Part shown: positions 24,981 through 40,456 of the stretch, piece by piece | Layout: each line of letters starts with the position of its first letter | How positions within the stretch are numbered: the stretch's first letter is position 1 | From: an uncultured SAR86 cluster bacterium | GTDB taxonomy: Bacteria > Pseudomonadota > Gammaproteobacteria > Magnimaribacterales > D2472 | Direction of reading: 5' to 3' | NCBI GenBank assembly: GCA_902596165.1 | Contig: CACJSU010000007.1 | Location: 1-64,000, forward strand | DNA length: 64,000 bases | The notes under the pieces: generated by a model | Databases searched by the model: none | Seen by the model: only the letters and a program-made list of their open reading frames with translations | What the model was told of the DNA's origin: nothing | Position numbers and translations under genes: made by a program

Positions 24981-25955
24981 CTAATAAGTAGATTTTTGGT
25001 TTAAATCTTTTACAGCCTCTTTAAATTCTGAGGTTAATTGACTTACTAAAGTTTGAACAGATGGTGAGTCTTTAATTGAACCTATGCCTTGACCAGAGCC
25101 CCAGATATCCTTCCATGCTTTTGCATCTGTATTGCCTCCAGATCCAAAGTTCATAGATGATTTGTCTGCCTCAGGGAGATTGTTGGGATCTAATCCAGCA
25201 TTTTCTACAGAACCTTTTAAATAGTTACCATGAACGCCGGTGAACAAAGAGGAATACACGATGTCATCAGCAGCACTATCAATCAGCATATCTTTATATC
25301 CTTGATCAGCATTGGCTTCTTCGGTAGCAATAAACCGAGTACCAAGGTATGCAAGATCAGCCCCTAAAGCAAGACTTGATGCAACTGCGCTTCCAGTGCT
25401 TATGGAACCCGAAAGGATAATCGTTCCATCAAAAAATTCTCTTACTTCTCTTACAAGGGCAAAGGGTGAAAGAGTACCAGCATGACCGCCAGCTCCAGCA
25501 CAGACCAAAATCAAACCATCAACGCCCTGTTCAGCAGCTTTTTTTGCATGCCTAACACTAATAACATCATGATAAACAAGTCCACCATAAGAATGGGCGG
25601 CTGTGACAATCTCTTCAGGCGGTCTGAGGGAGGTAATAATAATCGGCACCTCATGCTTTACACAGAGCTCCATATCACCCATCAATCTATCATTGGATGC
25701 ATGACAAATTTGATTAACAGCATAAGGCGCGATTGGTAAATCTGGATTCTCAGCTTTTGCTTGAGCCAATTCTTTTTTAATTCTGATCAGCCATTCCTCA
25801 AGTACGTGTTGAGGTCGTGCATTCAATGCAGGAAATGAGCCTACAATTCCTGCCTTACATTGAGCAATAACTAATTCTGGTCCTGAAACTAGAAAAAGTG
25901 GCGAACCAATAACTGGAATTGCTAAATTATCTTGTAAAATTTTAGGAAGTGGCAT
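24981..25955 (-). CDS. Nitronate monooxygenase family flavoprotein
   Basis: NMO/2-nitropropane dioxygenase family, FMN-dependent TIM barrel, 324 residues. The signature CAGAGGHAGTLSPFAL carries the catalytic histidine, and LSGSISTGSAVASSLALGADLAYLGTRFIATEE is the FMN phosphate region. The N-terminus IPVIGSPLFLVSGPELV is typical. Proteins of this type oxidise alkyl nitronates, though physiological substrates are often unknown. It converges on the MazG-like gene with a 39-base gap. Confidence 0.9.
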   Translation of the reverse strand: MPLPKILQDNLAIPVIGSPLFLVSGPELVIAQCKAGIVGSFPALNARPQHVLEEWLIRIKKELAQAKAENPDLPIAPYAVNQICHASNDRLMGDMELCVKHEVPIIITSLRPPEEIVTAAHSYGGLVYHDVISVRHAKKAAEQGVDGLILVCAGAGGHAGTLSPFALVREVREFFDGTIILSGSISTGSAVASSLALGADLAYLGTRFIATEEANADQGYKDMLIDSAADDIVYSSLFTGVHGNYLKGSVENAGLDPNNLPEADKSSMNFGSGGNTDAKAWKDIWGSGQGIGSIKDSPSVQTLVSQLTSEFKEAVKDLNQKSTY

Positions 25956-37022: not shown

Positions 37023-37883
37023 CTAGACTTTATTTTTTATATGGGTGCTGGGTGGCTCAAAAAATACATTTAACCTCTCGCCAAAATTATTCTTATTCTT
37101 AATATCGTCAATCATGGATGCCCAAGCCATAAAAGTTATCTTTGTCGGATTATAAGTATTTACATTGTTGACCAAGCCAAACTTCACAGGCTCTTCTTCA
37201 GGCTCAAAGGTTCCAAACATTCTGTCCCAAATTATTAAGAGATTTCCATAATTCTTATCTATGTATTGCTTGTTAGAGCCATGATGCACTCGATGATGAG
37301 AAGGGGTGTTAAAAACCCACTCGACAAAGCCAAGCTTACCAACAATTTGCGTATGACCAACTATTCCCCATAAAGTGCTCATAACTCCAGCTACTGCAAT
37401 GATTGTTGGATCAAATCCAATGAGTGGAAGCACAATAAAAAATGGTATTTTAGAAATGGGGCCAAACCATGCTTGCCTAAAAGAAACTGCAAAATTCATT
37501 TCTTCACTTGAATGATGGCTAAGATGAATTGCCCAGAGAAACCTAACCCTATGTGACATTCTATGGTAAATATAAAAAACAAAATCAATCATGATGAAGG
37601 TTAAAACCCACATCGCCCACAAAGGCAAAATACTTGCAAGATCAAAAGCCTTAAATTGATATAGATAGAAATGAAAAGCTAAGATCAGCCCTTTAATAGA
37701 AAAAGCTACAATAATATTTCCAGCAAGCAAACCAATGGTGCAAAGAGTGTCTTCTTTCTTGTAGTATTTGTTATTTTGCCAGTTTGAGATTAAAAGCTCG
37801 GCAAAAATCATCGCCATCACAATTGGCACCCCAATTGCGTAAACCTCATTTACAGTCAGATCAGTCAAAATATTACCTTCCAA
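37023..37883 (-). CDS. Sterol desaturase/fatty acid hydroxylase family protein
   Basis: 286-residue membrane di-iron enzyme. Three histidine clusters are present: HRMSH (about 107-111), HLSHHSS (120-126) and HRVHHGSN (196-203), with four or five membrane segments. The family hydroxylates or desaturates lipids; the substrate is not deducible. The frame begins with TTG at 37883 without an obvious ribosome site, so the true start may be slightly downstream. Confidence 0.86.
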   Translation of the reverse strand: MEGNILTDLTVNEVYAIGVPIVMAMIFAELLISNWQNNKYYKKEDTLCTIGLLAGNIIVAFSIKGLILAFHFYLYQFKAFDLASILPLWAMWVLTFIMIDFVFYIYHRMSHRVRFLWAIHLSHHSSEEMNFAVSFRQAWFGPISKIPFFIVLPLIGFDPTIIAVAGVMSTLWGIVGHTQIVGKLGFVEWVFNTPSHHRVHHGSNKQYIDKNYGNLLIIWDRMFGTFEPEEEPVKFGLVNNVNTYNPTKITFMAWASMIDDIKNKNNFGERLNVFFEPPSTHIKNKV

Positions 37884-37935: not shown

Positions 37936-38994
37936 TTAGGCAGTGTCTCCATAATCCTGCATATGCTTTGCTGTTCTTTCGTTTGTGCCATACATAAAGT
38001 GATTTTCCATTTTCTCTCTATATTTACTTGCTGGGACAGTTAGCCCAACAGCTTCTGCTACTTCTCTTTGATGCATGGGGGTAGCTCCGCAACAAACACC
38101 GAGCAGCCTAATGCCTATACTGTGGACTTCTTTAAAGAATTCGCGCATCTCATATCTATTACAATATAGCGGATCTAAGGCAGTGGGGAATGTTCTCCCA
38201 TGTGGTGCATGGCAAGTACAACCATTATTATCGGGTAAATTGAAAAAAGTTGGATGCTCTTCAGTTGTTCTGAATGGAAGTGGCAAAGCAGCCATATGGC
38301 AGCTTATAGCCTCTCTTATTTCTTTTAAATAAGGAAGCATGGTCTGCGGCCCTCTAAAACAGTTCATTCCAACGACGTCGGCACCCCTTTGCTCAAGCTC
38401 CTTACATGTATCAACTATTGAAACCCCATCGCGCATAATATTTTCTCCCATCGGAGCAATATTTATGACCGAAGGCAGTCCAGACTTTTGAATAATTTCA
38501 AGTGCTTTATATGCTTCTTCGGCATAATAAAAAGTTTCTCCCATAATTAAATCAGCTCCTTCATCTACAGCCCATTCAACCATTTCATTAAACATGCGCT
38601 CCACTTCAAGCTGAGAGTCCTTGTTGCCCTCTTCCCAAATATTAGAATTTGAAATATTGCCGGACATTAAATTGGGCTCTCCTCCACCAATAGGATTATC
38701 GGCAACTTTTTTTGCAATTTTAAGAGCAGCTCTATTGAGTGGCTCCAGAAGCTCCTCCTTACCAATAACTCTCATTTTTTCTCTATGTCCGTTATAGGTA
38801 AAAGCCTGAACGATGTCAGATCCAGCATGTTGAAAATCCTTATGAAGATTCTCTAAAGCCTCTGGGTGCTCCAATGCAACCATGGGCACAAACTCGCCCG
38901 AAGCCAAATAGCCTCTTTTTTCTACCTCAAATAAAAAGCCCTCAGCGCAAATTACTGGGCCCTCATCTAATCTTTCAAGTAATTGTCTTTTCAT
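37936..38994 (-). CDS. Betaine-homocysteine methyltransferase-like enzyme
   Basis: 352-residue homocysteine S-methyltransferase barrel. Zinc ligands are the cysteine in GMNCFRGP and the C-terminal pair in LLGVCCGATP. The N-terminal EGFLFEVEKRGYL and QAFTYNGHREKM resemble BHMT. It would use betaine or a related methyl donor to make methionine. I chose ATG 38994 because GAGG lies ten bases upstream; the open frame extends to a TTG at 39009. The 5' leader contains a SAM-II/SAM-V-like riboswitch candidate and a second hairpin, supporting a methionine-cycle role. Confidence 0.88.
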   Translation of the reverse strand: MKRQLLERLDEGPVICAEGFLFEVEKRGYLASGEFVPMVALEHPEALENLHKDFQHAGSDIVQAFTYNGHREKMRVIGKEELLEPLNRAALKIAKKVADNPIGGGEPNLMSGNISNSNIWEEGNKDSQLEVERMFNEMVEWAVDEGADLIMGETFYYAEEAYKALEIIQKSGLPSVINIAPMGENIMRDGVSIVDTCKELEQRGADVVGMNCFRGPQTMLPYLKEIREAISCHMAALPLPFRTTEEHPTFFNLPDNNGCTCHAPHGRTFPTALDPLYCNRYEMREFFKEVHSIGIRLLGVCCGATPMHQREVAEAVGLTVPASKYREKMENHFMYGTNERTAKHMQDYGDTA

Positions 38995-39014
38995 ATTTAT
39001 ATACCTCAAATTAA

Positions 39015-39048
39015 CCCAGTAACACCTGCGTATAGAGCAGCTGTTGGG
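39015..39048 (-). promoter_or_regulatory. Hairpin in the leader, possible riboswitch expression platform
   Basis: Imperfect hairpin in the transcript between aptamer and start codon: outer stem CCCA/TGGG, inner stem ACAGCUGC against GCAGGUGU with one G-G mismatch, loop of seven. UUAAUUU and the ribosome site GAGG follow directly. It could terminate transcription or mask initiation. Confidence 0.5.
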
Positions 39049-39075
39049 CTTTTAGTTAAATCCTGGGAAAAAATT

Positions 39076-39127
39076 CCGTTTTAGCACTTTCTTTAAAAAT
39101 CGCGGCAATAGGATCAAATCACGATTA
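39076..39127 (-). promoter_or_regulatory. SAM-II/SAM-V-like riboswitch aptamer
   Basis: Read on the - strand, a stem AATCGTG / CGCGATT encloses a loop containing GATTTGATCC and TATTGC, followed by a TTTAAA segment and then GTGCTAAAACGG. These blocks match the SAM-II core order (P1 stem, G-A-U-U-U...C-C...A-U-U-G-C loop, U-A-A-A, G-C-U-A-A-A...G-G), in which the terminal G-G pairs back to the loop C-C to make an H-type pseudoknot. It lies about 80 bases before a homocysteine methyltransferase gene, the expected target of SAM control. Recognised by eye, not by covariance search. Confidence 0.72.
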
Positions 39128-39172
39128 AATTCATTTTAATACATGGTAATTATTTTGCAATTACTATTTAAA

Positions 39173-40441
39173 CTAACTCAGATCGTCTCTAGGCTTAAAT
39201 TCCAGCACGGTAGCATTAATACAGTATCTTGGCATTCCGTTAGGGCCGTCTGGAAACACATGCCCCAAATGAATATCTGAGGTAACAGATCTTATTTCTG
39301 TCCTTCGCAATCCATAGCTATTATCAGGCTTTGTATAAACAGAACCCTTGATTGGAGCCGTAAATGACAGCCATCCCGTATTGGAATTAAACCTGTCTTT
39401 GGTATCGAATAATGGAGCACCACTTAATTTATCAACAAAAATACCATCGGGGGTATTTTTAAAAATTTCATACTCTTTGCAAAATCTTGCATCTGTTCCC
39501 TGCTGAAAGGCAACTTTGTAAGCTTCTGAATCTCTGAGCTTAAAGTAGCCAAGAGCTTCATAAAATTCTTTAGGGCTAAGGTACCCCTGATAACCAAAAG
39601 ATTCTTTTCCATTTTCCAAAAATAAAATAGTTGGAGTCGCCCATGTGGGAGATTTAATCTCTAAGCCCTGAAGTTGGTTAGCTAGCCTAAACACTAAGGG
39701 AATATCGCCATAATAGTTCTTAACAACATCTGATCTAAATTTGTCACAATAGGGGCAATAGCCTTCTGCTTCAATCACGATCATATGCTTTCCTGAAAGC
39801 AAGTCTGAATTATCAAGAATTTCAATAGTTTCTTTTTTTACAAACTTAACCCCCGTTGAATGATCTGGGCAATACCCATTTGGATTTTTTGCTATATAGT
39901 CTTGATGATATTTTTCTGCTTTGTAAAACTTTCTAATTGGCTTTACTGAGGTTGCAATGGAGCCATAACCTGCTGCTGACAAAAGCTCTTGAAAGGTTTT
40001 AAGAACCCTATCAATTACTTTCTTTTGCTCTGCAGTTGAATACAAAATGATAGATCTATACTGGGTACCAATATCATTTCCCTGTCGATTTAGCTGAGTG
40101 GGATCATGAGACTCAAAATAATGCATTAAAAGCTGTTCAGTAGAAATAATATTCTTGTTATAAGTTACCTCAACTACCTCTGCATGATTGTTATCATTAA
40201 ATTTATTTTTAAGTTTTGTAATTTCCCTATAAGTTGCTCGAACGCCTTTTCCGTCGGCATAACCAGAAACAGCATCAATAACCCCAGGCAAAGATTCATA
40301 ACCCTTTTCTGCTCCCCAAAAACAACCTGAGCCTAAAACGATTTTTTCTGAATGAACGGTAGCATCAATGGTAGAAGCAGACAGTAAGCCCCAAAAGAAT
40401 GGAGAGATCAGTATGTATAAAAAGAGTATTGATTTTTTCAT
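39173..40441 (-). CDS. msrAB: Exported MsrA-thioredoxin-MsrB methionine sulfoxide reductase fusion
   Basis: 422 residues, signal peptide at about 1-23, then three domains. MsrA (about 33-195) has its catalytic cysteine in GSGCFWG (C40). A thioredoxin-like domain (about 205-305) has C229-P-Y-C232. MsrB (about 315-415) has catalytic C407 in RYCIN and the GHVFPDGP signature. MsrA reduces S- and MsrB R-methionine sulfoxide, and the central domain could recycle them. The order differs from Neisseria PilB (thioredoxin-MsrA-MsrB). ATG at 40441 follows an in-frame TTG. Confidence 0.9.
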   Translation of the reverse strand: MKKSILFLYILISPFFWGLLSASTIDATVHSEKIVLGSGCFWGAEKGYESLPGVIDAVSGYADGKGVRATYREITKLKNKFNDNNHAEVVEVTYNKNIISTEQLLMHYFESHDPTQLNRQGNDIGTQYRSIILYSTAEQKKVIDRVLKTFQELLSAAGYGSIATSVKPIRKFYKAEKYHQDYIAKNPNGYCPDHSTGVKFVKKETIEILDNSDLLSGKHMIVIEAEGYCPYCDKFRSDVVKNYYGDIPLVFRLANQLQGLEIKSPTWATPTILFLENGKESFGYQGYLSPKEFYEALGYFKLRDSEAYKVAFQQGTDARFCKEYEIFKNTPDGIFVDKLSGAPLFDTKDRFNSNTGWLSFTAPIKGSVYTKPDNSYGLRRTEIRSVTSDIHLGHVFPDGPNGMPRYCINATVLEFKPRDDLS

Positions 40442-40456
40442 CAAGCAAACATTTTA

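Follow-up and report, generated by a model that had tools for sequence, protein, structure and literature searches.

The leader of a betaine-homocysteine methyltransferase gene (bhmT) from an uncultured SAR86 bacterium carries a conserved element that, as judged from comparative sequence analysis, is very probably a SAM-sensing riboswitch of the SAM-II type, and that most likely represents a SAR86-specific SAM-II subtype falling below the Rfam cut-off. It was studied within the window, the whole 64,000-nt stretch of contig CACJSU010000007.1 that was analysed. Beyond the single case described in an earlier, sequence-only reading of the window, we identified a lineage-wide family with more kinds of targets and a conserved 3′ extension. 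The parts of the window leader and its neighboring genes are arranged as follows:

39133..39160, minus strand: promoter-like hexamers TTGCAA-16-TAAAAT, ending 6 nt 5′ of the aptamer
39056..39130, minus strand: probable SAM-II-type riboswitch element, aptamer plus conserved 3′ extension (Rfam SAM_alpha, own model R1, alignment A2)
39121..39126, minus strand: P1 5′ strand AATCGT (P1 covariation)
39104..39120, minus strand: presumed SAM-binding loop GATTTGATCCTATTGCC, near-invariant in alignments A2 and A3 and fitting the SAM_alpha consensus
39098..39103, minus strand: P1 3′ strand GCGATT (A2 alignment, P1 covariation)
39074..39085, minus strand: GCTAAAACGGAA, comprising P2 strand GCTAAA and P2a strand GGA; GCTAAAA is invariant in A2
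39066..39069, minus strand: TTCC, which can pair with GGAA (hairpin B of the alternative fold; minimum-energy leader fold)
39056..39064, minus strand: AGGATTTAA, complementary at 8 of 9 positions to loop TTTGATCCT (helix A; pairing comparison, folding)
39015..39048, minus strand: second hairpin, between element and ribosome site (sequence, folding, leader comparison)
39003..39007, minus strand: ribosome site GAGGT, 8 nt before the ATG at 38994
37936..38994, minus strand: BHMT, 352 aa, homocysteine S-methyltransferase family (PF02574, solved-structure matches)
37023..37883, minus strand: next gene 3′ of bhmT, fatty-acid-hydroxylase type (a relative in genome G006, locus L181, matches PF04116)

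The window aptamer consists of a P1 stem, a GAUUUGAUCCUAUUGC loop, a GCUAAA strand and a short P2a, with an A-rich joint between P1 and GCTAAAACGGAA. All SAM-II core blocks listed in the sequence-only reading are present on the minus strand, namely the stem AATCGTG/CGCGATT, the GATTTGATCCTATTGC loop, the TTTAAA joint and GTGCTAAAACGG, although the extent given there (39010-39127) had to be corrected, the conserved element running from 39130 to 39056. The second hairpin that it placed before the ribosome site is likewise found in the window (39048-39015), but only some leader groups have one, as it is present in longer leaders and absent from short ones. The window has a single copy of the loop 14-mer TTTGATCCTATTGC, and chance would yield 0.12 matches when one mismatch is allowed. 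No terminator-like site was seen in the window leader. The gene upstream of the element (39173-40444, minus strand) presumably encodes an MsrA-MsrB methionine sulfoxide reductase fusion, and bhmT is possibly co-transcribed with the hydroxylase-type gene that follows it.

Rfam SAM_alpha (RF00521) matches positions 39060-39135 of the minus strand with 28.0 bits (E 3.5e-4 for the 801 bases searched; E 1.5e-4 for the same match over the whole genome), which is 8 bits short of the gathering cut-off of 36 bits, and a default Rfam scan at gathering thresholds lists nothing in the window. The model of SAM-II with long loops (RF01726) reaches 22.4 bits (E 0.11) in the window and 34 bits at best in 16 loci of relatives, both below its cut-off of 44. 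At relaxed thresholds SAM_alpha is listed for 14 of 16 relatives' loci with 24.8-31.8 bits, all below 36, and none of the 20 SAR86 loci tested reaches an Rfam gathering score. For comparison, we took loci, mostly of SAR11, that the bhmT search had also returned: SAM_V reaches its cut-off in 14 of 20; a relaxed search of 16 such loci finds SAM_V in 14, of which 13 pass, and SAM_alpha below threshold in five (24-35.4 bits). Measured SAM binding is reported for the bhmT pair of P. ubique (PMC5069961). Because the SAM-II halves of SAR11-type bhmT leaders are also sub-threshold where listed and the P. ubique pair is reported to bind SAM, a low score is a weak argument against function, and the cut-off is better regarded as a search filter than as a biochemical definition. 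Two further SAM_alpha matches, one at window positions 25510-25580 (18.6 bits) and one at another locus (L003, 22.6 bits), lack the core blocks and were rejected.

The covariance search suggested by the sequence-only reading, which had left SAM-II and SAM-V side by side, thus sustains the former at E 3.5e-4, albeit below the gathering score, and not the latter. A SAM-V riboswitch would be a natural candidate in that SAM-V precedes bhmT in SAR11 and has its binding core in common with SAM-II (PMC2704228, PMC6061858); however, SAM_V (RF01826) has no match in the window up to E 10, and the ribosome site (39007-39003) lies about 67 nt past the P2a GGA (39077-39075) rather than inside the pseudoknot strand, which renders this assignment extremely improbable.

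Conservation among relatives supports a SAM-II-type element. The loop and GCTAAA blocks, whose loss in relatives would have spoken against the earlier proposal, are kept in all 26 SAR86 bhmT leaders (the window, L009-L032 and L080), and the conserved GAUUUGA and UUGC loop and the GCUAAA strand of SAM-II are present. In alignment A2, GCTAAAA is invariant in 29 of 29 rows, and P2a and P2 GC/GC are complementary in 98.9% and 98.3% of cells, respectively, but hardly vary, so that they offer no covariation by which to judge these pairings. The covariation in related leaders that had been proposed as a check is found in P1: double changes occur at four of five pairs in an 88-match alignment (33 cells, whereas shuffles give 4.1 and slid controls no more than 8), a count that leans upward since this alignment was fitted to P1, and in A2, made with MAFFT, 12 double-change cells are found versus 2.9 in shuffles, all at one pair.

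A covariance model (R1) was built from 29 elements (28 bhmT leaders and L002, a second element of the window's genome) and scores the window, itself one of the 29 training rows, at 95.3 bits. At an E-value limit of 0.01, R1 matches 86 places, which are distributed over 68 of the 203 genomes searched in the order. In 369 genomes across the class it matches, beyond the window's own, a single genome (G492, 36.6 bits); this only R1 match outside the order (L206) has a SAM-II-like core, and its host genome, from the same class, measures 2.1 Mb. A core-pattern scan of viral contigs found nothing. Three shorter elements (L190, L192 and L193; 28-32 bits), in which the joint is very short and the loop reads GGCCC, precede genes for glycine/serine-rich lipoprotein-like proteins, 13-14 nt from the start codon, and perhaps form a further subtype.

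Very high primary-sequence conservation and steady spacing to promoter-like hexamers would also be expected of a conserved DNA or protein-binding element, such as a promoter, attenuator or transcription-factor site, with no RNA sensor involved. In the window alone the hexamer search is not significant (one found versus a shuffle mean of 1.2); among the 26 SAR86 bhmT leaders, and without a shuffle control, the best hexamer pair scores at least 9 of 12 in 24, and 5-6 nt separate the second hexamer from P1 in 21. The double changes in P1, the significant match to a SAM-II covariance model, and the orientation of the element toward the downstream gene in 84 of the 85 places with an open frame found make a purely DNA-level element very improbable.

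The BHMT assignment of the sequence-only reading holds: the window protein matches PF02574 with 123.9 bits, and its best solved matches are chains of Betaine--homocysteine S-methyltransferase 1 (E 1.2e-44); the BHMT is of the human type. Its suggestion of a gammaproteobacterial host is likewise borne out by the nearest named genomes, which are SAR86 gammaproteobacteria. The closest BHMT genes are found in SAR86 (81-96% identical in named records and 97% in one further genome), followed by those of SAR11 (73-78%). A search for metE found it in one of 60 relatives; the window's genome, 87% complete, yielded none. Two bhmT copies (L104 and L106, in G057 and G009, respectively) show internal stops or split matches, suggesting gene decay, and that of G057 keeps the riboswitch element. 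In G006 (L181), a shortened element with GCTAAAA and no GGAA stands directly before a fatty-acid hydroxylase gene (PF04116) and resembles what a deletion of bhmT would leave behind, a related hydroxylase following bhmT in the window. Upstream of the SAR11-like bhmT of another gammaproteobacterium, Francisella sp. SYW-9 (L038), we noted a SAR11-like SAM-II core (GCGCTGATTTA...TTGCGAGCGC...GCTAAAGCGA) that Rfam does not list at E 0.5.

Target genes were assigned for 85 of the 86 R1 places (the second bhmT place of G049 was left out), using Pfam and NCBIfam for representatives of the main classes and BLAST grouping for other members. Methionine-synthesis genes are next in 40 places: bhmT in 28 (one of which, in G057, has stops in frame), metH in six, homocysteine S-methyltransferase in five, and metY in one. 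An AlkB-like protein of the FA_desaturase family, which matches solved alkane 1-monooxygenases (E 9.5e-30), is next in 13 places corresponding to 10 genes, and three of these genes (L149, L157 and L160, in G042, G028 and G035) are preceded by tandem elements about 110 nt apart. TonB-dependent receptors of two groups are next in 17 places and the glycine/serine-rich lipoprotein-like protein in seven. The remaining eight targets include two thioredoxin-like proteins, one kind of small protein in two places, a carbonic anhydrase, a fatty-acid hydroxylase and an open reading frame that we take to be OmpW-like. One place counted among the 85 (L195, 26.8 bits) was taken as a probable false positive; it precedes an open reading frame that presumably encodes a 3-dehydroquinate synthase.

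The second element in the window's genome (L002/L205; G000:C12:4000-4072, minus strand) lies 226 nt before a TonB receptor gene. About 130 nt from it, on the opposite strand, starts a gene that we assume to encode a BCCT betaine/choline transporter. Related TonB receptor genes differ in their elements, that of G025 (L196) having a canonical-looking SAM-II close by and that of G000 (L205) the SAR86 variant 226 nt off.

Many targets are not obvious SAM-pathway genes, which counts against a SAM sensor, and an element of the same SAM-II shape that now prefers another ligand (SAH, methionine or some other metabolite) would explain the TonB receptor and AlkB-like oxygenase targets, given that 45 of 85 are not plainly methionine genes. 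Nevertheless, methionine genes form the largest target class, and the binding-core bases are near-invariant in A2 and A3. In the SAM-V/SAM-II fold, SAM is contacted by a third-strand U, a P2 U-A pair, a bulged U and an A (PMC6061858); the counterparts of these bases, with the strands matched by us, are among the near-invariant ones, and a change of ligand appears improbable. The SAM-II reading is further sustained by the significant though sub-threshold covariance match, the conserved core, the covarying P1, and the repeated occurrence of the element upstream of bhmT, metH, homocysteine methyltransferase and metY genes.

The majority of copies have a 3′ extension (UUCCnnAGGAUUUAA) in common: beyond GGAA, UUCC comes after a short spacer, and AGGAUUUAA a few bases later. 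The latter is complementary to loop UUUGAUCCU at 8 of 9 positions, one being a G-U pair, while GGAA, which shares bases with the P2a strand, is the complement of UUCC. Exactly the AGGAUUUAA/UUUGAUCCU pair occurs in 25 of the 66 elements compared, a set without L174, in which the motif was unmatched, and without 18 elements that are weak or lack the extension. Most copies in the larger TonB-receptor group are without the extension, a GGAA..UUCC-like hairpin persists in the absence of AGGAUUUAA in several TonB-receptor copies, and the hairpin of one metH leader (L173) has two pairs only.

The unconstrained minimum fold predicted for the window leader (-27.7 kcal/mol) contains both alternative helices and loses P1. 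Over 64 distinct elements, pairing between the loop core and the extension has a mean probability of 0.33 versus 0.08 with shuffled extensions, and 28 of the 64 beat at least 19 of 20 shuffles. Helix A exceeds a probability of 0.5 in 19 elements, hairpin B in 51, and P1 in 25. No covariation of helix A was found in A2; a single compensatory pair, C-G to U-A, occurs in one sequence (L159). A fold swap between a SAM-bound and an alternative state is suggested by these predictions as a possibility that we regard with some reservation.

When the leaders were folded in two states, the SAM state made the ribosome site less accessible in 30 of 53 leaders and more accessible in five, although this comparison is biased as one state ties up the extension. 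The figures are 16 and three in the first 33 leaders, a set without leaders above 130 nt, without elements that are weak or lack the extension, and without L151 and L161, whose alternative helix or P1 was too short, and 14 and two in 20 leaders longer than 130 nt, five extension-less TonB-receptor ones included. In the window, predicted openness falls from 0.70 to 0.51 in the SAM state. When the alternative fold was not forced, accessibility was lower in eight and higher in five of 38 leaders. A shuffled-extension control of 51 leaders did not single out the real extension (mean 0.30 versus 0.36): nine leaders fall in the best tenth and three in the worst, the median is 0.41, and the window, at 0.95, does worse than most shuffles. 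Occlusion of the ribosome site by the extension as an anti-Shine-Dalgarno sequence is weakly supported by this modelling.

According to PMC6061858, most SAM-II switches control transcription, and the metY element (L189), with a canonical-looking SAM-II layout at 34 bits, is followed by a terminator-like stem and a T run, as would be expected if the switch acted on transcription through termination or Rho. For the SAR86 element this is unlikely: no terminator-like site follows in the window leader, the extension has no T run, and about 10-25 nt separate its end from the start codon in the shortest leaders. The lack of a visible terminator favors translation over transcription, and, together with the nearness of the extension to the start codon in the shortest leaders, makes repression at translation the likeliest mode, and the SAM switch probably acts in this way.

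We propose a SAM OFF switch in which plentiful S-adenosylmethionine would lower bhmT expression. Transcription may start just 5′ of P1, and SAM would stabilize P1, P2 and P2a, the last formed by loop UCC with GGA. Without SAM, AGGAUUUAA would pair with loop UUUGAUCCU and UUCC with GGAA, refolding the aptamer; the two states would be mutually exclusive because the extension pairs with the loop and with the pseudoknot strand. The SAM state would cut translation; the likeliest cause is that the freed extension or an altered geometry hampers the ribosome site. We tentatively extend this to a SAR86 subtype with a fold-swap platform and an order-wide SAM regulon that covers methionine genes, TonB uptake, an AlkB-like monooxygenase and tandem elements. 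If this is true, the aptamer is actively unfolded without SAM, and uptake and oxidation of organic sulfur or methyl sources might feed the methionine supply.

One RNA that recurs through SAR86 marks out a candidate SAM regulon and offers testable functions for TonB receptors and AlkB-like enzymes of unknown substrate, and an entire lineage of SAM-II-type RNAs is concealed by the Rfam cut-off. A 2025 proposal holds that only SAR11 couples glycine betaine demethylation to methionine synthesis by BHMT alone (PMC12478193); SAR86, with a human-type BHMT and mostly without metE, is a second candidate for such coupling.

A survey of about 200 proteobacterial genomes places SAM_alpha only in Rhizobiales and Rhodobacterales (PMC4239095), and another study, in a side remark, describes SAM-II as most common in Alpha-, Beta- and Gammaproteobacteria (PMC2704228); given the latter remark, SAM-II in Gammaproteobacteria is not itself new. 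The word "riboswitch" is absent from the main text of a SAR86 genome study (PMC11582366), and the one paper found to mention both SAR86 and SAM-II names SAR86 only in its references. We found no account of the SAR86 element in the literature, and supplements, e.g., Additional File 1 of PMC2864571, may hold such sequences.

Compared with known systems, the element resembles SAM-II (RF00521) in P1, the GAUUUGA...UUGC loop, the GCUAAA strand, the short P2a and the methionine targets, but differs in its SAR86 host outside Alphaproteobacteria, the extra 3′ extension and the TonB-receptor and AlkB-like targets. It shares its core and marine setting with SAM-II with long loops (RF01726), a type listed for Bacteroidetes and marine sequences (PMC2864571), whereas gaps are needed to align the window loop with the long-loop model. 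The SAM-II riboswitch of S. meliloti metA reportedly controls translation at a distance (PMC9373788) and is similar in its presumed translational action and in a start codon far from the aptamer; however, the metA riboswitch itself holds the required GAGG, and the SAR86 ribosome site is separate and near the start codon. The SAR11 bhmT leader is a SAM-II/SAM-V tandem (PMC2704228, PMC5069961, PMC11508383) with a related target gene, the same presumed ligand and the SAM-II core first, whereas the SAR86 leader has neither the SAM-V half nor a terminator and carries the extension instead. The SAR86 tandems, in turn, consist of one element occurring twice ahead of AlkB-like genes, unlike the SAM-II/SAM-V pair of SAR11, and the closely related bhmT genes of SAR11 and SAR86 thus appear to be served by differently built SAM sensors.
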